In this document: piece by piece, positions 10,428-62,399 of the stretch
Position numbering within the stretch: position 1 is the stretch's first letter
Layout of the letters: each line of letters starts with the position of its first letter
Virus record (IMG/VR): IMGVR_UViG_3300026521_000161
Location: 1 to 64,000 of that record
From: a virus
Length of the DNA stretch: 64,000 nucleotides
Direction: 5' to 3' (one strand)
Notes under the pieces: generated by a model
What the model was told of the DNA's origin: nothing
Databases searched by the model: none
The model's input: only the letters and a program-made list of their open reading frames with translations
Made by a program: the position numbers and the translations under genes

Positions 10428-10451
10428 CTAGTAACGTATATACGTTACTAG
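10428..10451 (-). terminator. Terminator of the UvsW-like helicase gene
   Basis: Perfect palindrome CTAGTAACGTA / TACGTTACTAG overlapping the stop codon, followed on the minus strand by a T-rich run. Confidence 0.8.
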
Positions 10452-13400
10452 ATGAATTCCCTATATTCGATAGACTTAATATTTTTAGCTCTCTTCCTGA
10501 ATAACTTCATTCTGTTATGGTTATATGTTTTATGTTGTCTTATATCAGACGACCATATATAAACAAAATCCATCTTCTTACCTTTTAAATCTCTAAGTCT
10601 ACCTAATGTCTGCAAGTTAGCTTGCACGCTATCGACATTAACAGTTTGTATAACTGTTACTAGGTTAGGAATATCTAATGCGGTACCGGCACTTTGTAAC
10701 GTACTAATAATAATATCGGACTTCTCTATAACATCGTAACCATCCTCCTCTGTATACTTACTGATATTAAGTTTAAGTTTTGTTCTTAAATAATCAGCCA
10801 TCATCACACACATTTTAACTGTACCCATGAATATCATAAGCTTATCATCTTTAGCTCTTTTCTTAACATAGAAACCTAATGTTAAACCATATATCATCTT
10901 TAGATAATTATTTAGTATCCTTCTATTTTTTATAATAGAATTCTCTAACATTGGCTGGTTGTATCCGAAGTTGTTTTTAAACCTTATAAGCTTTCTCTGC
11001 ATGAATCTAAACCTAACAGATGTTATGTATATATAAGGTTTATACTTAACTATATTAGAAGCTCTATTACTCTCCGGGAACATGATGTGGTACATCTTAT
11101 CTAGTTCTTTATCTTTAGTAACTAATGTAGCTGTAATACCTATAAATAACTTTATATTACTAAACAACATAGTCTTATAAACATTAAAGAACTCTTGATG
11201 TGTTTCATCATTAAGAACTATTTCTGTACCTAGTGCATCGAATAAGTCATCTGGTGATAGATCTGTATACTCCGTTAATTCACCAGTTAGATATCTCTTA
11301 ACTAAGTAATTCAACGTTGTTAACGATATGATGAAACATTTATATCTCTTAGCTAATTCTTCATTGTGCATGAGGTTAACAAGATTTGTTAAACCTTTAA
11401 CTATACATATCTCATCTCTCTTTATATCTGTGAGAGTTGTTATGTCATCTACCCATTTATCTATGTATCTAGGTAAAACTATCATAGAGAATGTTTTATT
11501 TATTCTGGACATAGATGCCATGGATATGAACGTGTTGTGTGTTACTATATAATCTTTAACAACAAAGAGTTTATCTTTATTATCCACAGATATACATACG
11601 GCTTCCTCTTTTACAGATTTCTCTATAGAAACTATACGTAGTTTAAGATTATGACTATATTGGTTCTTATCCTTTAATCTATCTCTACGTTTAGGTAATG
11701 TTACTATATCTCTAGGGTTTTTGACACGTATATGTAGTCTATACGATAGCCTACCACGTTTCTTCTCTCCTTTATGTGTATAGTATGTATATCTAGTACC
11801 TACGCTACACATTCCTCCAAGACTCCTAACTAATAACTGTACGTCTTTAGCTAACTGTTCACTAGTAGTACTATAAGAGGCCCCGCCATTTATACCTACT
11901 TCTCCATCTGTATCCATTAAACCACGTAATAGTTCGTATCTCTGTTCTAACGATCCCTCCATGTATTCTTCCGGTATGAACTTAGACCACGCGCGCTTAT
12001 CATATAGACCATATTCCCTAAGAGCTTCGCGCATATCTATATCGGGTTTATTACGTAGGTCTTGAAAAAGTATGGAGAATGTTTTAAAGTCCTTTTTTCT
12101 ACGTATTTTGTAACCTTCATTAATGAACTTACCAACTCTATTAAAAACGTGATCAGAAACATTAGTTATCTCTAGTGCTGGCATATGTCCATCCCCTAAA
12201 AGAGCACCCATAACATATGGATGTATCTTAAGATACATAGGTTCTTTATCCATAGGCTCTGGTAGATCTATATAATACCGACTACCATCTTTCTTACCCT
12301 TAACTGTATCTAGATAGTTCATGATATCTTCGGTAGTTAATACCTTAGCACTCATGTTTTTACCGATCGTATCAAAATTAGTTAGTTTAGGTAATTCATC
12401 TTCTATATCCATGATAGTATCTACATATATATCAACAGCTATAAAATCTGTACCTGGTACTTTATCGATATGTGCTATACCCATAAGACTTTCCACTAAC
12501 GCCACTATCTGTTTAGCATATGCTAATGTATCACAAATGATCCTAGGACCACCATTACCTTTTATAATACCATCTAGTAAATCTTTACGTTGCTTAGGTA
12601 AGCCAGAAAGATATCTACCTGGTATAAAGAAACCATTATTATCCGGACCTAGTTTAAGTAGGTTAAGCTGTCTCATGATAGCGTGTTTTTGTATCTTTTC
12701 ATTAACATGCTTTATATATAAAACACCATCATTAACTTCTGTATAGAATATGTCCCTTAAGCCATTGTTAATCTTATTTATATCATATCCAGAGAGGTTA
12801 GGTATATCTAAAACAACATTGGCTTGCTTACTACCTATCATTAGACCTAATAGAAATGGATCTATTATATAGTTACGGTATTTATAATTTTTAACACTTC
12901 TTTTAGTGAACAGATAAGAATGCACTGTCCATAAGTGATCTAGACCTGCCTCTATTGTTCTACCGTCCGAAAATGTTACTTTATATAATTGCATTATACC
13001 TTGCGGATATACGCCAGTAACCGTTGTCTCTAACCCATCCCTTCCTATAACTTTTTCGCCCCTTCTAACGTCTCCTATACGCTTCCAGCCATGCTTTAGA
13101 CGTATAGGTGTATCACAGCTTATCATCTTCCCGTAACCTGTGAAAAGATCGATGAGCACGTTATGTTTGTTGAATTCAGTTATCTTTTGTATATAGGTCT
13201 CTTGATAATCCCTTGGTATATAATTGGGATTAAGTTCTATATTTACATCGTTACCAATGATAGGTTTAAAAGCTTCTACGCGTATGTTATCTTTTTCTAT
13301 TCCCATATTCTGTAAGAAAGTTGTGAGGCTATCTAATAACGTTATAGGGTAACGTAGTTGATCCTGTTTAACATTATATCCCTCTTCTCTTGTCTCTGTT

Positions 13401-13579
13401 ATATAGAAATGTTTATCTGGTTTAGTTACTACTTGTGGTTTTCTACTATTATTAACTTTCATTAACGCTATCTTGTGTGTTATAAGTGATTTATTAAAAT
13501 CATATAGTGTATGTAAAAGCTTACTATAGTTATCACTCGTAACAGTGAAATACTGACTATACTTCTTGATGAAAATCAT
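10448..13579 (-). CDS. UvsW-like SF2 helicase interrupted by a class 3 intein
   Basis: 1043 residues before splicing and about 512 after. The extein is an SF2 helicase: Q-like RDYQETYIQK, P-loop FTGYGK/T (148-151 plus 683), DEAD-box position VLNDETHQE, motif III GITATL, and C-terminal ISTLQSAGTALD and LGRLRDLKGKK for motifs V-VI. UvsW-type helicases act on recombination and replication forks. The intein spans residues 152-682. The gene follows the RNAP beta-prime part, the slot where I recall a helicase (gp75) in phiKZ. Splicing must succeed for ATPase activity because the intein splits the P-loop between Lys and Thr. Confidence 0.8.
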   Translation of the reverse strand: MIFIKKYSQYFTVTSDNYSKLLHTLYDFNKSLITHKIALMKVNNSRKPQVVTKPDKHFYITETREEGYNVKQDQLRYPITLLDSLTTFLQNMGIEKDNIRVEAFKPIIGNDVNIELNPNYIPRDYQETYIQKITEFNKHNVLIDLFTGYGKMISCDTPIRLKHGWKRIGDVRRGEKVIGRDGLETTVTGVYPQGIMQLYKVTFSDGRTIEAGLDHLWTVHSYLFTKRSVKNYKYRNYIIDPFLLGLMIGSKQANVVLDIPNLSGYDINKINNGLRDIFYTEVNDGVLYIKHVNEKIQKHAIMRQLNLLKLGPDNNGFFIPGRYLSGLPKQRKDLLDGIIKGNGGPRIICDTLAYAKQIVALVESLMGIAHIDKVPGTDFIAVDIYVDTIMDIEDELPKLTNFDTIGKNMSAKVLTTEDIMNYLDTVKGKKDGSRYYIDLPEPMDKEPMYLKIHPYVMGALLGDGHMPALEITNVSDHVFNRVGKFINEGYKIRRKKDFKTFSILFQDLRNKPDIDMREALREYGLYDKRAWSKFIPEEYMEGSLEQRYELLRGLMDTDGEVGINGGASYSTTSEQLAKDVQLLVRSLGGMCSVGTRYTYYTHKGEKKRGRLSYRLHIRVKNPRDIVTLPKRRDRLKDKNQYSHNLKLRIVSIEKSVKEEAVCISVDNKDKLFVVKDYIVTHNTFISMASMSRINKTFSMIVLPRYIDKWVDDITTLTDIKRDEICIVKGLTNLVNLMHNEELAKRYKCFIISLTTLNYLVKRYLTGELTEYTDLSPDDLFDALGTEIVLNDETHQEFFNVYKTMLFSNIKLFIGITATLVTKDKELDKMYHIMFPESNRASNIVKYKPYIYITSVRFRFMQRKLIRFKNNFGYNQPMLENSIIKNRRILNNYLKMIYGLTLGFYVKKRAKDDKLMIFMGTVKMCVMMADYLRTKLKLNISKYTEEDGYDVIEKSDIIISTLQSAGTALDIPNLVTVIQTVNVDSVQANLQTLGRLRDLKGKKMDFVYIWSSDIRQHKTYNHNRMKLFRKRAKNIKSIEYREFI
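11534..13126 (-). mobile_element. Intein 1 (class 3 type) with a tandem LAGLIDADG region
   Basis: Residues 152-682 of the helicase, 531 aa. It starts MISCDTPIRL, so position 1 is Met, not Cys/Ser/Ala, and ends IVTHN before Thr+1. It carries the W-C-T triad of class 3 inteins: W217 (DHLWTV), C662 (AVCISV) and T680 (VTHN). It has two LAGLIDADG-like pairs. The first (FLLGLMIGS at 242-250, LLDGIIKGNG at 334-343) lacks the catalytic Asp. The second (VMGALLGDG at 456-464, LLRGLMDTDG at 550-559) keeps both. The second pair may therefore be an active homing endonuclease. Confidence 0.85.
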
Positions 13580-15737: not shown

Positions 15738-16751
15738 TTACTCCTTATCTTCTGCTAGATCTGATTCATCTACATCACTGATATTAGTTATATCTGTGAT
15801 ATATTCCTCAACACTGTTTTCCTCGTACTCGTACTCTGATTGGGTTTCAGGCACATATTCTAATTCCATACCTATAGAATTCCATAATGATGTTAATATA
15901 GTCAACCCACGTTCTCTACCATATGGCGTCACTGATCTATCTATAATAGTATCTATAGATGTTGGTGTGCCATTAGTTAATAATTTACTATACACTTCCT
16001 CATGTGACTCTATAGACGTATTAAGATCTTTTAACTCAGCTAAGAACTCTCTACCACCATAGGCAGCGAATATACGTCCCTCTGTTTCACCTTGTGTTCT
16101 AACAGGACTATTCTTAGCAGGTAACCTATATCTATCATTTTTGCTTGTAACGATAGGTATACCAAAATGATTTAATTTAGCAGAACTAGTAGTTAATACT
16201 GTATCAGCTATCTTACTTAACATAAAGATATACATAGGCGCTATCATAACTGGATCTTCCGAAGTACGCGGCCTACCATCATATGTAAATTTTACCTTAT
16301 CGTAAACTGGTTTATAAATAGATTTATCTAAATCCTTTATAATCTCATACTTACGTTTTTCATTATCGGTAGTTAGGTAAGCTCTAAATCTATCATATAT
16401 GATCTCCTCTACTACAGATAGCATAGACTCTCTATCATTATTGTGTAGTATACCGTTATAAACATCAAACATACCATTACCTAATATACCCATGAAATCC
16501 CTAGCATGCAGGAATAGATTTTTAAGCTGTACATCTGTTAACTCATATGGTTCCGTTACATTATACCTTTTATATTCGTCTCTTACAATGCGCTCTAACT
16601 TCAGCATAGATGCTTTAGTAGTAGCTTCATAAGGACCACCTATATTAAGCCTAGATATAGTAGATTTCGGATCCACTATCATCTCCGCTCTATTACCGTC
16701 TTTATCGATAGGCATCTCTTCATCAGGCCATACCGATACAATTGTACCTTT
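15738..16751 (-). CDS. RNA polymerase beta subunit, C-terminal part, exon 2
   Basis: The exon encodes 337 residues starting KGTIVSVWPDEEMPIDKDGN, which aligns with the beta segment after GRHGNKG that leads to MP(I/F/Y)D and SRLNIG. Later PVRTQGETEGRIFAAYGG matches the clamp-contacting GxQxxGEMExWALxAYGA region of beta. The exon start was set by protein continuity and by the intron ending in G. It ends 2 nt before the beta-prime part gene. Joined to exon 1 (18664-19875) it gives about 741 residues, the counterpart of phiKZ gp71-73. Confidence 0.85.
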   Translation of the reverse strand, partial: KGTIVSVWPDEEMPIDKDGNRAEMIVDPKSTISRLNIGGPYEATTKASMLKLERIVRDEYKRYNVTEPYELTDVQLKNLFLHARDFMGILGNGMFDVYNGILHNNDRESMLSVVEEIIYDRFRAYLTTDNEKRKYEIIKDLDKSIYKPVYDKVKFTYDGRPRTSEDPVMIAPMYIFMLSKIADTVLTTSSAKLNHFGIPIVTSKNDRYRLPAKNSPVRTQGETEGRIFAAYGGREFLAELKDLNTSIESHEEVYSKLLTNGTPTSIDTIIDRSVTPYGRERGLTILTSLWNSIGMELEYVPETQSEYEYEENSVEEYITDITNISDVDESDLAEDKE

Positions 16752-18663
16752 CGAATATGTTCAAGTGGCTCGCTACACCACCCCGCGTCTCTAAACGCTG
16801 CTCACTCTCTCGAATGAAGACTTGGTCGATTACCAAGAATGACTTTCGTCGTCCAGACTATATCTAATCCCTTATTACTAAGGGCCGAAACATTTCCATT
16901 TAAGGGATTTTATACCCACCTGCTTAGGCCGTACTCCCTGGTGAGGGGATAGTCGTTGAGCCCACACGCTCCATATAGGATGTATCTCTACGTTTAAGGT
17001 GCTTCGCTGCGTCGGTTACCTAATCTCATAAGGTTTTTACTATGCTTAACTCTTCCATTACTGGGTTAAGTATCATAGTCTGTTTCCAGCTATGAGTAGT
17101 ACTTATGAGCTCTAAAGGCGTCCCCGTCATTAGTATCGTTCTAAGTTATAAGATTACTCCTATAACTGGCTTACATAATATTCCATTACATTAATCTATC
17201 TGTATAATCTTCAGGCTTCGCATCTCCTGGAAGATTAAGATCTTTCTTCATATCTTCAAAAGTCTGATACGACTTTCCATTATATGTGTATTTATAAAAC
17301 TCACGTAATATTTTACGTAGTTCACCTTCTATACTCTGAAACTTTGTGTTATGTAGTATATTTAATCTAACTTTCATCTTCTTAGCTATCTCTGCTTTTT
17401 GAGCATCGTTAGTCTGTACTTCTTTAAGTAGGTCATTACCGCCCCATGCCTTAATAGGAATGTAGTGTTGGTTACCATTGTACTCTATGAAGATGTTAAG
17501 TCTGTTAAGATAGAAGTCATACTTGTATTTGTAATCTTTGATACCGTATTCTCTTTCATGCTCTATACCGAATTTATTAAGAACACGCTCTATCTCTTTC
17601 TCATTCTTAGACCCAGCACATAGTAAACAACCCCTACCTCTAAGATGCTCGTTAGCAACTTGCTGGAAATCCCCATGAACAGGACACCCTATAGTTACTG
17701 TATCCAATGTTGTTCTAAATGATACTTTACTATAATCATATCTGTTGTTATGTATTTCATTAGCTTTAGATATGAACTCCGATACATCTGTCCTACGATT
17801 ATCGTTATAACATTTACTACAACCTCTACCCTCTAGATGTCCATCCAGCCTCTGCTCGAATTCACCATGTATAGGACAAATAATAGTACCCTTATGAGCA
17901 ACACTCTTGAATATAAGTTTACTATAATCGTACTTGTTGTTATGTACCTTATTAGCCCTCTCTATAAATCCATCTCTACCCATACTAGTGTTATTGGCAG
18001 CTTTATCTCTACCGCACCTAGCACAACCGAACCCTGCTAAATGACTACTAGGTAATTGTTTAAAATCACCATGGACTGGACACGTTATGATAACGTGTTT
18101 GGTAACACCTTTATAATCTGTTTTACCATAGCTATACTTTTTACCGTGTTTGGCCTCAGCTTCCCTAATAAAATCTTCAGTAGTTCTTTTAGGTCCAGCT
18201 GAACATTTAGGACATCCCTGTCCAATTAGATGCTTGTCTGGTCTCTTATCAAAATCACCGTGTATAGGACACCCTATCACAACAGCTGTTCTATTGTTAA
18301 TATAGTTAACTTTAGAATAATCATATTTATCGCCATGGATTTTACGAGCTTTAGCTACGAACTTATCTGCGTTAGATGATATACTACTATGTGCTTTCTT
18401 TTTACCGCATTCTGGACAACCACTACCCTTAAGAAAATTATTTGGTGTTGGGTAAAAGCTACCGTGGATGGGGCATATAACTTCTATGTCTTCTTTACTA
18501 CCTTTGTATACGACTTTACTGAAATCGTATTTGGTACCTAACCTTCTGGCTTTCTCTAAAAACGTTTCTGTTGTTAACGCTTTAGCCATTTCATATCCTT
18601 TTGTTTTATTTGCGAATTTGTGTTTGTAATTGGAATATCAGTCTTTACCTACCGGTAAATCAC
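16752..18663 (-). ncRNA. Group I intron B in the RNAP beta gene
   Basis: A 1912-nt group I intron on the minus strand. P7 strands are visible (CGACTATCCCC at 16945-16955 and GATATAGTC at 16856-16864). The core 16950-17130 covaries with intron A. The 5' exon ends in T and the intron ends in G, as the class requires. Splicing joins MGG to KGT, restoring KFTNLMGGKG, which aligns with the universally conserved KLTGRHGNKG of beta. The P1 pairing is less clear than in intron A, so the 5' site rests mainly on protein continuity. It carries its own homing endonuclease gene. phiKZ also has an intron with an endonuclease (gp72) in this gene. Confidence 0.88.
17186..18589 (-). CDS. Intron-encoded homing endonuclease, five zinc-type modules plus EDxHD/Vsr-like nuclease
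   Basis: 467 residues. Residues 1-330 hold five tandem modules of about 60 residues. Each starts FxxKAxxxHxxKYDYSKxxY and has CP(I/V)HGxF followed by GxGCxxC, together a plausible Cys-His-Cys-Cys metal site for sequence-specific DNA binding. The last 140 residues are a nuclease domain of the PD-(D/E)xK/Vsr-like EDxHD type: YKYDFYLNRLNIFIEYNGNQHY with Asp, Glu and His in the expected order. It lies between P1 and the intron core. It would cut intronless RNAP beta genes and spread the intron. Confidence 0.82.
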   Translation of the reverse strand: MAKALTTETFLEKARRLGTKYDFSKVVYKGSKEDIEVICPIHGSFYPTPNNFLKGSGCPECGKKKAHSSISSNADKFVAKARKIHGDKYDYSKVNYINNRTAVVIGCPIHGDFDKRPDKHLIGQGCPKCSAGPKRTTEDFIREAEAKHGKKYSYGKTDYKGVTKHVIITCPVHGDFKQLPSSHLAGFGCARCGRDKAANNTSMGRDGFIERANKVHNNKYDYSKLIFKSVAHKGTIICPIHGEFEQRLDGHLEGRGCSKCYNDNRRTDVSEFISKANEIHNNRYDYSKVSFRTTLDTVTIGCPVHGDFQQVANEHLRGRGCLLCAGSKNEKEIERVLNKFGIEHEREYGIKDYKYKYDFYLNRLNIFIEYNGNQHYIPIKAWGGNDLLKEVQTNDAQKAEIAKKMKVRLNILHNTKFQSIEGELRKILREFYKYTYNGKSYQTFEDMKKDLNLPGDAKPEDYTDRLM

Positions 18664-19875
18664 ACCACCCATTAAATTAGTAAATTTATTCTTTACCCCC
18701 GGAGTTAATTCATACTCGATAGTAAATTCTATTCTGAAAAGATCTAGGGATTCTTTTCTGTATGTTTTCTTACGCTTGGTGCCATAGTGACTCGAATCTA
18801 AAATACCGTACGCTTCTACTAGCAAAGCATTGAATGCATTACTTACAGTTATGTCTTTGTTAAACATTCTTTTATAATCCCTATTAATAGATTCATATGT
18901 CTCTACTATCTGATTATAGTATGCTAATAAAGCATCTGAGTATTTAACTAAATATTTTTCTGTACCTGCTGGTAATGCTCTCTTTCTCTTAGGCGAATAA
19001 TAGACTTTGATATCTACTATCTTACCTTTATTACCTCTAGTATATACAGCTTCATCGAACAAGGGGTTAAAGTCTTGTGTATCTTTAACGCTTGTTAAAC
19101 ATGGCGCGTATAAAGGGTTATTTTTTCTTACGGCAGCTACTACGCCTGTATCGTTGATATATTCACCTATCTCTGGGAACGGTTTATAGTTATCATCATC
19201 ACCATAGATATTAAGTAAGAATGAATCTTCACCTGCTTCCACTACACGCTTATCAAAGATCTTGAATTTAAATTTGTTACAGAAGCTTTCAGATACTACG
19301 AAACCATCTTCGTCTACTTCAGGTAGAGTCATAGTTGCTACGTTGATATCTTTACCGAAGCCATAACCTCCGTCGTCTAATACGGTAGGAGGTACAGCTA
19401 ATTGAGTATCTTTTGGTAGGACGTCACCTCTTACATAAGAGTCTAGTTCTTCATTAAGCTTATACTTAAATCCGAAATAGGGATGGAAAGTATTAGAATA
19501 AGGTATATCTACTATATCTAATTCACCTGTTTCTAGATCTCTTATGATAACTAATCTAGATGTTGTTTTGTTGTCTTCTCCTAAGATATTATATCTCTTG
19601 ATAACAGCTAAGACTTCAGAATCATTATCTACTTGTTTGGCTACAGTATATTTTCTTAATTCTGATTCTAAACCTGTTTGTAACATGTTTTCTTCTGGTT
19701 CGTTGATAACAACTAATTGTGCTATATGACTAGACATCATAAGACCACGTGGTGACGAGTTATGCTCTACGAACGGGTTGATGGCCGCCATAGAGAACAT
19801 CTTCTTATTGAGCTGGAGATCTGGGTCTTGCTCCACATATGAATCTATATGATCTTTATAGTTAAATTCACTCAT
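18664..19875 (-). CDS. RNA polymerase beta subunit, C-terminal part, exon 1
   Basis: Encodes 404 residues: RGLMMSSHIAQ (as in beta MGANMQRQAV), then DGYGFGKDINVATMTLPEVDEDGFVVSE, matching the beta pattern LAxGxxLxNxLVAFMPWxGYNFEDAI/VxSE, and RGNKGKIVDIKVY. It ends KFTNLMGG at the intron. Without splicing the protein would stop four residues later (VIYR). The class 1 promoter lies at 19900-19926. Together with exon 2 it forms the active-site half of beta in the non-virion RNAP. Confidence 0.85.
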
Positions 19876-51804: not shown

Positions 51805-53607
51805 TTAACGTCTATATCTGTTGTATGTTGCGTGTGGCGCACTGTAGTGCTGCCTTGCAGTAGACATACCAAAACCAGTAGAACCAACTGACGCAGAAGC
51901 ATATGCAGATGCAATGTTTTGTAGGTTATTAAATTCAGAATATCCGATAGATGGATTATCAGTATCTGGAGTATAACCACCATCCATAGCACGGCTTGTT
52001 AATTCATCGATGAAAGCTCCATCTAAAACAACTCTAACTGCTCTACCAGTAATAACTGGTTTAAGGTTAAGCATTGTAGCAACTTTATCGATAACTTCAA
52101 GTTTTAGTGTATATGGATCTTTACCTGTTGATGACACACAGATGTCCTCTGGTGCATTAGAATAAATCCAATCGATTAATAAGCCAGGATCATTTGTGTG
52201 TTTAGCGATGAACACTGTGTCGATCTCTCTGATGTCTCTAGGATTAGACTCATTATCTAGGAACTCACCTAGTGGAACATACATAGTCGCAGCAGCAACT
52301 GGAATATCAGGCATTTCACTTCCAACAAGATCTGAAGCTGCATTTAAAATATCTTCTGTAGCGAAGCGTCTACTAGCTTTATCAGCTAATGCAGTAAATG
52401 GTCTTAAGTACGGATAATCAGAACCAAACTCTTCAATATCTAAAGCAAAGATAGGCTTTGGAACGATATGCTCTCTGATGATATCGTTAACGATTTCTGG
52501 GCTAGCTTTCTCATCGTTGAACGAAATTTTCTCACCATATTTACGCCCATCACCTTGGTAGTTAAATAGGAAGTTAAGCGGACCAGCATCTTTCTCTACA
52601 ATAAGATTTTTAAGTACACCACGGTTAGTAAACGTTGTAGCATTGATCATAGATAATAACGCATAGTTGATTGTAGGTGCAGCACCAATGAACTCATTAA
52701 GGATGATCATAGGTTCAGCCATACGTTTAAATTTACCTGTATATCTATCTGTATCTTCACTAATGATATACTCGATGTAACCAGCAGTAGTTGTTAACTT
52801 GTTACGACCGCCTTGACCATTTAATCTTCTTGCACTTGTATTTTTAACGATAGATACCTCAACGTTGAAGTCTGTACGTACATTACGACCTAACATGTTG
52901 ATAGAGCTACCTGAGTTAAGACCAAGATCTAAAACTAATCTACCATTTTCAGTTACAGCATCAATAGCATCTACAGTGATGTCACTCTCGATACCAGTGT
53001 CTTTTGCATAGTTAGAAACAATGATATCTTGTGCATATCTAGCGATGATTTCAGCAGTTTGCTCTAATGGAGCACCAGTAGGCATGATAACACCTTCACA
53101 GAATACTAAATCTTCCTCTTTTGTTTCCATAGCACGACATAGTACAGCTGTTGCAGCTTCGAAGAAAATATCATCAAAACCATCTGCAGTAACAAGAACA
53201 TCAGAACTGTTTTTAATGTTAAAGCTTTCAACGATTGTATGTACGTCTAAAGGAGCACGACCAGTAGCTTCTAGTAGTGTAGAGAAGTAATATGTTTTAC
53301 CGTTATCGCCTTTGTAAGCGAATACCAAGTGACTGAACTCGAAATCAAATTTGTTAAGATCCATCTTGATGAACTTGATATCAACTTTTGTATGCTTAAG
53401 TGTTTTTTGCGCTATCTCTAAAAAGCTCTCTAGAATTTCATTGTCTCCATAGTTACCGATAAGTAAACTATCTGCACCAGATAAACCAAGAACATTTAAA
53501 CTTTGTCTTTGTTGTCTTTCTCTTCTTTGTCCAGTTCTTTCAGAACCACCTCTTGTTTCATTTAGGTTTTCTAAACCTTCGTCGAAATTTACTTTTTCGA
53601 ATGCCAT
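51805..53607 (-). CDS. chmA: Chimallin, phage nucleus shell protein
   Basis: 600 residues. I align it from memory, end to end, with 201phi2-1 ChmA (gp105, about 630): NEILESFLEIAQKTL with SEALTVFTRLKEQAV; LVFCEGVIMPTGAPLE with VVLAGPFPIPADLVL; VPKPIFALDIEEFG with QPNPVFQIDLNRMGE; YVPLGEFLDNESNPRDIREI with VIDLGNWFDGDEKRDRRDL; and the C-tail QNIASAYASASVGSTGFG with QAQVHSAYAGTQGFN. Chimallin tiles into a proteinaceous nucleus that shields DNA from host nucleases. The first 35 residues are an Arg/Gln-rich disordered arm, and the C-terminal segment that would contact neighbouring subunits is kept. Codon use is strongly biased, as for an abundant protein. Class 1 promoter with a long leader. Confidence 0.88.
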   Translation of the reverse strand: MAFEKVNFDEGLENLNETRGGSERTGQRRERQQRQSLNVLGLSGADSLLIGNYGDNEILESFLEIAQKTLKHTKVDIKFIKMDLNKFDFEFSHLVFAYKGDNGKTYYFSTLLEATGRAPLDVHTIVESFNIKNSSDVLVTADGFDDIFFEAATAVLCRAMETKEEDLVFCEGVIMPTGAPLEQTAEIIARYAQDIIVSNYAKDTGIESDITVDAIDAVTENGRLVLDLGLNSGSSINMLGRNVRTDFNVEVSIVKNTSARRLNGQGGRNKLTTTAGYIEYIISEDTDRYTGKFKRMAEPMIILNEFIGAAPTINYALLSMINATTFTNRGVLKNLIVEKDAGPLNFLFNYQGDGRKYGEKISFNDEKASPEIVNDIIREHIVPKPIFALDIEEFGSDYPYLRPFTALADKASRRFATEDILNAASDLVGSEMPDIPVAAATMYVPLGEFLDNESNPRDIREIDTVFIAKHTNDPGLLIDWIYSNAPEDICVSSTGKDPYTLKLEVIDKVATMLNLKPVITGRAVRVVLDGAFIDELTSRAMDGGYTPDTDNPSIGYSEFNNLQNIASAYASASVGSTGFGMSTARQHYSAPHATYNRYRR

Positions 53608-58514: not shown

Positions 58515-58544
58515 AATAACTCCTTCTTTTATTAAAATATATTT

Positions 58545-58576
58545 AGTATATAACTATACTGTATTAATAATATATA
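58545..58576 (-). promoter_or_regulatory. Class 1 promoter with palindrome
   Basis: Minus strand ATATATTATTAATAC then AGTATAGTTATATACT, about 30-60 nt before the start at 58514. Palindrome arms differ in sequence from other copies but still pair. Confidence 0.55.
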
Positions 58577-59002
58577 AGTAAAATATATTACATAACATAT
58601 ATTTCGCCTATAATCAATTTTATATATTAACCTATCATTTTATCCTGTAAACATTATTATAGCTTTCTAGCTATATCTATGTTAGTATTAAACACATATA
58701 AACACAATGATAATAAATTAAATAACCAAAACAGCAAAACTGCATTTCATATACCTGTTTGTTATACATACACACGTAGTGTAGTCTTTTATATATACAT
58801 ACTAGTAAGTAACTACGTAGTTATTAGGTATATGATACATATATACTATATAGTAATATTTATACATATAGCTGTATATACTGTATATTATACACCTTAT
58901 ATAGGTATATACATACTATATTTAACTTATATATACCTATACTAGATAGTGTAGTTGTTATTTTTATCAACTACACTATTAATTGAGTATTATTATTATA
59001 GA
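58577..59002. other. AT-rich intergenic stretch
   Basis: Very AT-rich, with runs of TATATAC-type steps at 58780-58940. No convincing gene; the 88-residue plus-strand frame here is low complexity with no ribosome site. It could hold an origin-like or promoter region, but nothing specific is seen. Confidence 0.35.
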
Positions 59003-59033
59003 GCTATAAAGGGGACTTTGTCCCCTTTATAGC
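59003..59033 (+). terminator. Strong hairpin (terminator) in the intergenic region
   Basis: 14-bp perfect stem GCTATAAAGGGGAC / GTCCCCTTTATAGC. No annotated gene ends near it on the plus strand, so it may close a non-coding transcript. Confidence 0.65.
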
Positions 59034-59220
59034 GATATATAGTAAGTGAGTGTAGCTCTGTGCTGCTCTGTTTCTTTTATCCGCTCACGTTTCGCCTTTG
59101 GGGGCTACACGACCGCTCCGATTAGTCCTCTCCCCCCAGAAAATGTCTGGGTCATGGATCGAGGTTGTGACTTTATTATGGTCACAGTTGTCATCGTTAG
59201 ATAATTAATTATTTTAATCA
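59034..59220. other. GC-richer hairpin cluster before the SNF2-like helicase (candidate structured RNA)
   Basis: Contains TGTAGC / GCTACA (about 59051 and 59105), CCCAGA / TCTGGG (59136-59152) and TGTGAC / GTCACA (59165-59186). It is much more GC-rich than its surroundings and carries no ORF. Confidence 0.4.
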
Positions 59221-59309
59221 ATATATAAATATTTATCTATTATTAGATATTTACTAATTACAGGTATACCATTAGTTAGAATGAATATAGACAGTTAAAG
59301 GAAACAATA

Positions 59310-62300
59310 ATGGAAAAGTATAAGAGTTTAAAATACATTTATAATAATAGAACTAAGAGATATACCATATACATAGATAATGTAGATCTTATAAAAGATG
59401 GTATAAAACATATCATAGGTAGAAGTGCTAGTAGGATACTTATAATAAAAGATAAGAAGACACAGTTTGATATCTATAGTTTCTTCTTATTAGAGTTAGA
59501 GCATACATTAGAAACATTAAAAGAGACTAGACCGGACTTAGCTGTTAAGATAGGTGGTATAGTACTTAATGATCTTATGAGTTTCCTTAAGACTAAAACA
59601 TGGTTAGCTGAACGTAATCATAAATCAGTAGTTAACGTATTAGATTATAATAATATTAGATCAGTTATGAAATATACGTTATTACCTCACCAAGTAGAAG
59701 TATTTAAGAAATATGAAGTTGTTAAACGTATGGCTAACCTTAGAGGATTCATGATGGATCTAGGAGCTGGGCAAGGTAAGATGGAAAAGAATGGTACACC
59801 AGTTAAAACACCTACTGGTTGGACTAATATAGAAAAGCTTAAGGTAGGCGATAAAGTTATAGGTAGTAATGGCAGACCAACTACTGTAACTGGTGTGTTC
59901 CCGCAAGGTAGGTTACCGTTAGTTAGGTTAAAGTTTGAAGATAATAGATATAGCGATGTAGGGCATGAACATCTATGGAGTGTTTCTGTAAATAATAAAT
60001 GGTCTGTTATGAAAACTTCTAAAATAATGAAATACATAGATAAAGGAAAAGATATTTATATACCTCTTATAGATTATAAGGTAAATAAGAATGATGTAGT
60101 AGATGAGCATTATATACATCCTTACCTAGTAGGAGTTATATTAGCTAGCGGTAGTAAGGTTAAGTGTATTAATGTAACCATAGATAAGGAACATGATAAA
60201 GTTAAATCTATATTACCAGAAGAGTATAGTCTATATAAAGATATTAACACATATCACGATACGCATAACCATAGGTTATTTTATAATGGTAAAGGTGATT
60301 GTAAGATAACTAAGCAGCTAAAGAAACTCAATATCTTTAATGGTAGAGACATAGTACCGGCACTACCAGCTAGTTATGAACACGGTTCTTATCTGACTAG
60401 AGTAGAGTTACTTAATGGTATATTAAATACTTCAGGAACTAACACTAAAGGTAATATCACTTACACAGAAGTTAAAGATATAAAGCTAGCTAACGTTATA
60501 AAAAGATTAGCATGGACTTTAGGGGATATAGCTTCCATACGTAAAGTTATAAGAACTACTAGATTAGGTTATGAATATACAGCATATGTGGTTAAGATAG
60601 TTAAAGAAAAGATCATTAAGATAACTGGTTATACAGAGTTACCAGAGCATGAAGCAACATGTATATCTGTATCTGCTAAAAATAAACTATATGTTACAAA
60701 AGACTATATAGTAACACATAACACATTTTCTTCATTAGCGTTAGGTGAAGCTCTTTCTTATAACAATGTTATAGTTATAGCTCCTAGCGCTACCATAGAT
60801 GACGTATGGGTTAAATCTGTTACAAAAGAGTTATATAAATCACCACAGCCTTATTTTGTTCTTAATAGTAAAAATAGGGATTATAAAAAAGAAAGATTTC
60901 TGATAATGAGTTACGAGACATTAGATAAGGTTAATAAAGATAAGAAATTGTTAAGAATGCTTAAGAGACTTAATCCTATGCTGATAGTGGACGAGTTCCA
61001 TAACTTTAACAATATCAAGGCTTTAAGAACATTTAACCTTATGGAGTTTGTTAAGAGAGTTGATTTTCAAGATGTTGTATTACTAACAGGTACGCCTGTG
61101 AAGATGAGCCTTAATGAACTTAAACCTATGTTATATATACTAGACGATAAGTTTAAATCTATAGTAGATATGTATGATGATTTCTACAGAGGTAGATATG
61201 AAATGTTTAGGAATAGATTCGACGTATATAGGAAACATGTTCCTAAAGATACTAAATCATTACCTCCTATTAAAATATCTGAATATAGAGTACAAATACC
61301 AGATAGTGATAGATTTACTCTAAAGGTAATTAATGAAGAGATAAAAGAGTTTAAGCTTAAACGTATGGAAGAGATAATGAGTAAGATGGATATATATGAG
61401 TCTATATACGAAGCAGCTCTTAATGAAGTATTTGTTTCTATGGTTACGTCAGGTATTAAAAAAGGCGAAGCTAATAAGTTATTATCTGATTATAGGAAAC
61501 TAGTTAAGTCTATAAGAAAGTTTAATAAAGATAAAAAGTTATATATGGCTCAGAATGATATCATAAGTGCTCGAGAAATGGAAAAAGAGATAATTTTAAG
61601 TAATCTATCTAGTAAAAGTAAAAAAGCTTTTAAAGACGTTATAAGCATCATTAAGTATCCAGAGCTTAAAGTACTTGGTGAAGCATTGGGCAAAGTGTTG
61701 TTAGGTACTAGAATAAAGTGTTATAACGAATTAGCCAAACATATTAACTACAAGAACATCCTATTATTAACAGATAAGAAAGGTATCGTATTTAGTAATT
61801 ATGTTAGTACATGTAAAGTAGCTATAAATAAAGCTACTAAGGATGGTTATAAACCTGTAGGTGTATTTGGTGATTTAGTAGAGAAACTACCTGTTTCTGT
61901 TAAAGCGTTCAATGATTTAAAAGATAAGACAAATCCTATAGTAGCTACTTATAAATCATTATCAACCGGTGTTCCTTTAGTAGCTGGTAACATAGTTATA
62001 TTACTAGACACTCCTGTTAGGAATTATCTACTAGACCAATCTATATCTAGAGCATGGAGGATAGGTCAGGATAGACCAGTAGAGGTATTAATGGTTAAAT
62101 TAGATACTGAAGGTAAATTAAATATAACAGATAGAGACCATTATATTTTAAATATGTCTACACAGAATGTAGAAATGATAACAGGTAATGTTAACCCTTT
62201 CGAGATACCACAACAGATAATGATAGAGGATGATATAGTAGATGAAGAAGATGAAGCTATACTAGATATGGAAAATACAGTTAAAGAAGAACTTAAGTCA

Positions 62301-62399
62301 TCTTTATTAAATAATATTAATTCAAATATGGTTAGTACAGATGAAGATAATACGAGTGTGTTAGGTAATATAATAAATAAATTTAAGTTTAAATTATAA
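59310..62399 (+). CDS. SNF2-like helicase interrupted by a class 3 intein
   Basis: 1029 residues before splicing, 715 after. Extein motifs: LLPHQVEVFKK (Q/Ia lead-in), P-loop DLGAGQGK/T (150-157 plus 472), VIVIAPSATIDDVW (Ia), MLIVDEFHNF (II), LLTGTPVKM (III), VFSNYVSTCKV, ATYKSLSTGVPL (V) and SISRAWRIGQDRPVEV (VI), typical of SNF2-family ATPases that move on double-stranded DNA or remodel complexes. The C-tail (residues 960-1029) is acidic. The intein covers 158-471 and must be removed to restore the P-loop. Confidence 0.82.
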   Translation: MEKYKSLKYIYNNRTKRYTIYIDNVDLIKDGIKHIIGRSASRILIIKDKKTQFDIYSFFLLELEHTLETLKETRPDLAVKIGGIVLNDLMSFLKTKTWLAERNHKSVVNVLDYNNIRSVMKYTLLPHQVEVFKKYEVVKRMANLRGFMMDLGAGQGKMEKNGTPVKTPTGWTNIEKLKVGDKVIGSNGRPTTVTGVFPQGRLPLVRLKFEDNRYSDVGHEHLWSVSVNNKWSVMKTSKIMKYIDKGKDIYIPLIDYKVNKNDVVDEHYIHPYLVGVILASGSKVKCINVTIDKEHDKVKSILPEEYSLYKDINTYHDTHNHRLFYNGKGDCKITKQLKKLNIFNGRDIVPALPASYEHGSYLTRVELLNGILNTSGTNTKGNITYTEVKDIKLANVIKRLAWTLGDIASIRKVIRTTRLGYEYTAYVVKIVKEKIIKITGYTELPEHEATCISVSAKNKLYVTKDYIVTHNTFSSLALGEALSYNNVIVIAPSATIDDVWVKSVTKELYKSPQPYFVLNSKNRDYKKERFLIMSYETLDKVNKDKKLLRMLKRLNPMLIVDEFHNFNNIKALRTFNLMEFVKRVDFQDVVLLTGTPVKMSLNELKPMLYILDDKFKSIVDMYDDFYRGRYEMFRNRFDVYRKHVPKDTKSLPPIKISEYRVQIPDSDRFTLKVINEEIKEFKLKRMEEIMSKMDIYESIYEAALNEVFVSMVTSGIKKGEANKLLSDYRKLVKSIRKFNKDKKLYMAQNDIISAREMEKEIILSNLSSKSKKAFKDVISIIKYPELKVLGEALGKVLLGTRIKCYNELAKHINYKNILLLTDKKGIVFSNYVSTCKVAINKATKDGYKPVGVFGDLVEKLPVSVKAFNDLKDKTNPIVATYKSLSTGVPLVAGNIVILLDTPVRNYLLDQSISRAWRIGQDRPVEVLMVKLDTEGKLNITDRDHYILNMSTQNVEMITGNVNPFEIPQQIMIEDDIVDEEDEAILDMENTVKEELKSSLLNNINSNMVSTDEDNTSVLGNIINKFKFKL
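59781..60722 (+). mobile_element. Intein 2 (class 3 type) with an inactivated homing endonuclease
   Basis: Residues 158-471, 314 aa. Starts MEKNGTPVKTPTGW (Met at position 1), ends IVTHN before Thr+1. W-C-T triad: W223 (HLWSV), C451 (ATCISV), T469. LAGLIDADG remnants YLVGVILASGS (272-282) and LLNGILNTSG (367-376) have Ser in place of both catalytic Asp, so the endonuclease should be dead. Same insertion point in the P-loop (GK/T) as intein 1. Confidence 0.85.

Follow-up and report, generated by a model that had tools for sequence, protein, structure and literature searches.

Class 3 inteins have no nucleophile at position 1. They carry Trp at B:12, Cys at F:4, and Thr at G:5 (the WCT signature), and the +1 residue is usually Ser or Thr (PMC5222942, PMC7664689). 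They occur at the P-loops of phage terminases, as at the TerL1 sites of mycobacteriophages (PMC5050341). The Snf2 intein of Deinococcus radiodurans is reported, in work cited in PMC3196547, to be of class 3 and to splice. The PhoVMA intein (7qst; PMC8966425) has kept its LAGLIDADG fold and lost the active-site residues. Class 3 phage inteins at P-loops, a class 3 Snf2 intein, and inteins with a dead LAGLIDADG domain are all already known.

We analyzed a window of 64,000 nucleotides from a virus record of 106,141 bases and describe in it an SNF2-type helicase interrupted by an intein, here called intein A. Intein A shares the WCT signature, the Hint fold, and an ATPase P-loop site with the TerL1-site inteins, MchDnaB1 (6rix), and MsmDnaB (6bs8). 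Those inteins sit in other host proteins and the solved mycobacterial ones are mini-inteins, whereas intein A starts with Met and contains an apparently decayed LAGLIDADG domain. The likeness to the D. radiodurans intein, which has a bacterial host, is one of class and host protein family. PhoVMA resembles intein A in its inactive nuclease but is a VMA intein from an archaeon, and its native residue 1 is Cys, the solved chain being a C1A variant. The same helicase, junction, and class 3 signature recur in the SNF2-site inteins of phages PhiPA3, SL2, PA1C, HHBS36_1, FishSpeaker, CF8, BUCT660, phiKT1019, and MIZ-Pa99. These are about 30% identical to intein A and mostly begin with Ala; several retain both catalytic Asp residues and others are differently eroded. 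In the public records examined they are labeled only as helicase, hypothetical, or DarB-like. In PA1C (L009, 722-3876) the helicase with its intein is recorded as two helicase genes that overlap in different frames, the break falling in the nuclease part of the intein. The intein of the Pseudomonas phage HHBS36_1 (L005:1202-2236) has Ser1 yet a full WCT signature, as does that of L182.

Phage setting and the class 3 signature of intein A

The window encodes a PhiKZ-type major capsid protein, a divergent DNA polymerase, RNA polymerase subunits, and a diverged homologue of chimallin, the phage nuclear shell protein (51805-53607, minus strand; PHROG 4795, E 4e-22). Together these genes identify the source as a phiKZ-like, probably nucleus-forming jumbo phage. 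Searching 50,697 phage records by megablast with 24 kb of window sequence gave no matches, nor did single-sequence scans of IMG/VR with intein A, the C-extein, or the DNA polymerase; finding relatives required alignments. An RNA polymerase beta-type subunit gene lies in two parts within 15738-19875 (minus strand), with 18649-19875 covering positions 9-403 and 15738-16715 covering positions 416-695 of the PHROG 3295 profile. Between the halves are an HNH endonuclease ORF (17186-18589) and a match to the group I intron family RF00028 (16839-17189, E 1.5e-6, below the gathering score). The gene is probably interrupted by a group I intron carrying an HNH homing endonuclease.

The helicase ORF matches Pfam SNF2-rel_dom (2.1e-11) and Helicase_C (3.4e-6) as well as the PHROG DNA helicase family (5.7e-54), and contains the motifs DEFH, LTGTPV, and QSISRAWRIGQ. 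Its Walker A motif, GAGQGK|T, is split by residues 158-471; homologues from other phages with an uninterrupted P-loop place the junction identically, at GxGK|T. Protein identity to the nearest extein is 51%, a distance at which silent sites would be saturated. The roughly 800 bases between the divergent neighboring gene and the helicase (58515-59309) hold no convincing gene. The features of the locus are as follows.

59310..62399, plus strand: SNF2/SF2-type helicase gene, 1029-aa precursor (ORF, Pfam and PHROG matches, motifs)
59310..59780, plus strand: N-extein, ending in the P-loop half GAGQGK (59763-59780); empty homologues have this GxGK just before T
59781..60722, plus strand: intein A, class 3 by signature, profile, and fold; 314 aa (host residues 158-471), in frame and stop-free
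59970..59978, plus strand: block B His64 and Trp66 (host H221, W223), invariant in 102 of 102 relatives
60090..60566, plus strand: degenerate LAGLIDADG homing endonuclease domain, approximate limits (profile score, z -5.2)
60147..60149, plus strand: Ser (AGC) in place of the first catalytic Asp (S123; host S280), from the family alignment
60432..60434, plus strand: Ser (TCA) in place of the second catalytic Asp (S218; host S375), from the family alignment
60660..60662, plus strand: block F Cys294 (host C451), the predicted class 3 nucleophile, invariant in 102 of 102 relatives
60714..60722, plus strand: block G Thr312-His313-Asn314 (host T469, H470, N471), from the family alignment
60723..62399, plus strand: C-extein, whose first residue is the +1 Thr that completes the P-loop (ORF and empty homologues)

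Each element of the class 3 signature was found in intein A. Position 1 is Met (ATG, 59781-59783) rather than a Cys, Ser, or Thr nucleophile; the Trp of B:12 lies two residues past the block B His, in H64-L65-W66; Cys F:4 is C294; and Thr G:5 is followed by His-Asn and by T472 at +1. His64, Trp66, Cys294, Thr312, His313, and Asn314 are invariant in all 102 distinct related inteins, although the search patterns for 70 of the 102 contained VTHN, so that the C-terminal T-H-N was partly selected; H64, W66, and C294 are unaffected. Residue 1 varies in the same set (Ala in 67, Ser in 8, Glu in 7, Met in 6). A family profile built from eleven related inteins matches the class 3 structures 6rix and 6riy (about 1e-13) and 6bs8 (4e-14); it also matches gp41-1 and, for the nuclease part, PI-SceI (5e-9). 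With the invariant residues and the empty P-loops, these matches exclude a chance resemblance. Hint identity to any relative is at most 50%, leaving intein A with no close relative.

An AlphaFold2 model derived from a family alignment, which speaks to fold and not to activity, has a mean pLDDT of 92.6 and a pTM of 0.89, with pLDDT about 97 across the Hint blocks. It predicts an intact Hint fold together with a LAGLIDADG domain. By Foldseek the model aligns to 6rix, 6riy, and 6bs8 with TM scores (by target) of 0.74-0.84, and it resembles PI-SceI along its length and the class 3 mini-inteins across the Hint part. Sequence criteria, profile, and fold therefore agree in supporting a class 3 intein. 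A first-pass annotation of this DNA had proposed that class, and its boundaries prove exact; the Met1, W223, C451, T469, and +1 Thr that it named, in host-protein numbering, are all in place, and the broken Hint fold that it said would refute its reading is absent from the predicted structure.

Nuclease decay and occupancy of the SNF2 site

The nuclease motifs of intein A read LVGVILASGS and LNGILNTSGT, where intact relatives have GxLLGDG and GLMDTDG. Nuclease activity needs an acidic residue in each LAGLIDADG motif. Intein A has none in either motif, while 72 of the 102 relatives have Asp in both. Reaching AGC from an Asp codon takes at least two substitutions and reaching TCA at least three, so at least five for the two codons together, which argues that the loss of Asp is not recent. 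Some 30 residues are also absent past the second motif in the alignment. Against a profile of the intact domain the nuclease scores 74 bits, compared with 220 bits for the intact module of a second intein in the window (intein B, below). In a regression of nuclease identity on Hint identity across 71 relatives with both Asp, intein A falls 5.2 standard deviations below the line (z -5.2) and intein B at +0.4. Pfam LAGLIDADG_3 is recognized in 27 of 35 relatives, and a Pfam search of intein A recognized no LAGLIDADG domain. By every computational sign, then, the homing endonuclease appears dead; the earlier reading of both Asp as Ser holds, and the missing residues and relaxed divergence add to it. 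Relaxed selection on the nuclease with maintained selection on splicing is the simplest reading of this pattern.

We compared alleles among related phages, as the first-pass annotation had suggested, in a sample of 96 homologous helicases drawn from phage records and IMG/VR, plus a few from bacterial contigs. The SNF2 junction is occupied in 28 and empty in 68, and the tree of these helicases requires roughly 11-13 gains or losses. L019, L020, and L021, the three helicases nearest to that of the window (C-extein identity 45-54%), are all empty, and the next-nearest, L022, is occupied, with one of the two Asp changed to Asn. The intein had been described as fixed and non-mobile. Loss of mobility by its own nuclease is likely, but fixation is not supported, because with L019-L021 empty the intein is not fixed in the lineage of the window. 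Either descent with loss in these three relatives or an independent gain could account for the pattern, and a Hint-only tree, with few columns, left intein A unplaced. A separate clade of 13 phages (MIZ-Pa99, L065, L066, L068, L069, L072, L074, L081, L082, L084, L087, L094, and L095) is occupied throughout; its inteins are 250-271 aa long and their nucleases are all shortened and eroded. Occupancy differs within the closely related pairs HHBS36_1/HPP-Temi and SL2/L041.

A second intein with two nuclease modules

The other SF2 helicase of the window, which adjoins the RNA polymerase genes, also carries an intein at GK|T.

11534..13126, minus strand: intein B, class 3, 531 aa, Met1, at GK|T of the other SF2 helicase (ORF 10448-13579)
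12422..12874, minus strand: predicted dead module 1, LLGLMIGSKQ / LLDGIIKGNGG, approximate limits (40 bits)
11642..12238, minus strand: predicted intact module 2, VMGALLGDGH / LRGLMDTDGE, approximate limits (220 bits; z +0.4)

Module 1 has no acidic residue in either motif, and its 40 bits against the nuclease profile compare with a maximum of 5 bits in 1000 shuffles. A structure model fits two modules in series; its confidence is low for the first half of module 1. We assigned the catalytic residues from the family alignment rather than from a direct alignment to PI-SceI, and a phmmer search of the live module against the PDB returned chance matches only. In its Hint part, intein B most resembles its two nearest relatives, L213 (66%) and L214 (52%), whose nucleases are eroded. 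Recognizable inteins among 80 IMG/VR h2 loci span 143-348 aa, none of them the size of intein B. A 143-aa, nuclease-free class 3 mini-intein occupies the h2 helicase P-loop in L216, L260, and L261. Within the partial literature covered, we found no published intein that pairs a dead LAGLIDADG module with an intact one in tandem. Intein B is more unusual than intein A. A tentative account, which we consider rather unlikely as it stands, is that it is a tandem-nuclease intein that arose when an intein with a decaying first nuclease either underwent an internal duplication or was invaded. If so, the tandem would re-arm an intein that was dying, and the live module might also serve intein A.

Splicing, mobility, and the homing cycle

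We are confident, from sequence and model alike, in reading intein A as a splicing class 3 intein with a decayed LAGLIDADG homing endonuclease. It very probably still splices, because it interrupts the P-loop of a helicase whose motifs are intact. After translation, C451 would attack the Lys157-Met158 peptide bond, leaving intein residue 1 unused and forming the branched intermediate typical of class 3; transfer of the N-extein to Thr472 would follow, and cyclization of Asn471 would let the exteins join and restore the P-loop GAGQGKT. Selection would maintain the Hint domain, since a helicase that fails to splice has no ATP site, and the nuclease would be free to decay, with both catalytic aspartates becoming Ser and the second half losing about 30 residues. 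Intein A would then be inherited passively or be exchanged with other phages through ordinary recombination, and would be gained and lost among relatives.

Patchy occupancy, with 28 of 96 helicases occupied and 11-13 changes, is also what one would see if intein A were still mobile, either because the Ser-substituted nuclease is active or because another endonuclease cuts the empty site in trans. The intact module of intein B, in the same genome, and the HNH enzyme at 17186-18589 would be the candidates for the latter; inteins A and B share the GK|T position, and 11 of the 20 central bases are identical between the two insertion sites. P-loop conservation alone gives that similarity, however, and the domain of intein A is truncated and strongly diverged as well as lacking the acid that each motif needs, so continued mobility seems very unlikely. 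The decaying nuclease part could likewise belong to an intein that has stopped splicing, for which the class 3 intein Arth_1007 of Arthrobacter is a known precedent (PMC3196547). That intein has neither Cys F:4, nor the block B His, nor real exteins, whereas intein A retains all catalytic residues, a confident Hint fold, and intact helicase motifs around it; a loss of splicing here is highly improbable.

Compatible with the preferred reading of intein A as a splicing intein with a decayed nuclease, though a further claim, is that it has been retained as a post-translational switch on the helicase. In mycobacteria, a DnaB intein of class 3 is responsive to oxidative stress (PMC6195587), and all members of the 13-phage clade retain nuclease-eroded inteins at the SNF2 site. 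The window sequence gives no sign of a switch, and the closest relatives manage without an intein, which makes conditional splicing very unlikely. The ATG at residue 1, which follows AAGG and has GCAAGGTAAG upstream, could in principle start a separate protein of intein and C-extein. The upstream bases merely encode GQGK of the P-loop, though, and residue 1 is variable in the family; we regard an internal start as extremely improbable.

Among nucleus-forming jumbo phages, the SNF2 helicase site can be seen at every stage of the homing cycle, from empty alleles through inteins with an intact, a half-dead, or a fully dead nuclease to shortened ones. Close pairs that differ in occupancy make the homing-cycle model testable in culturable Pseudomonas phages.
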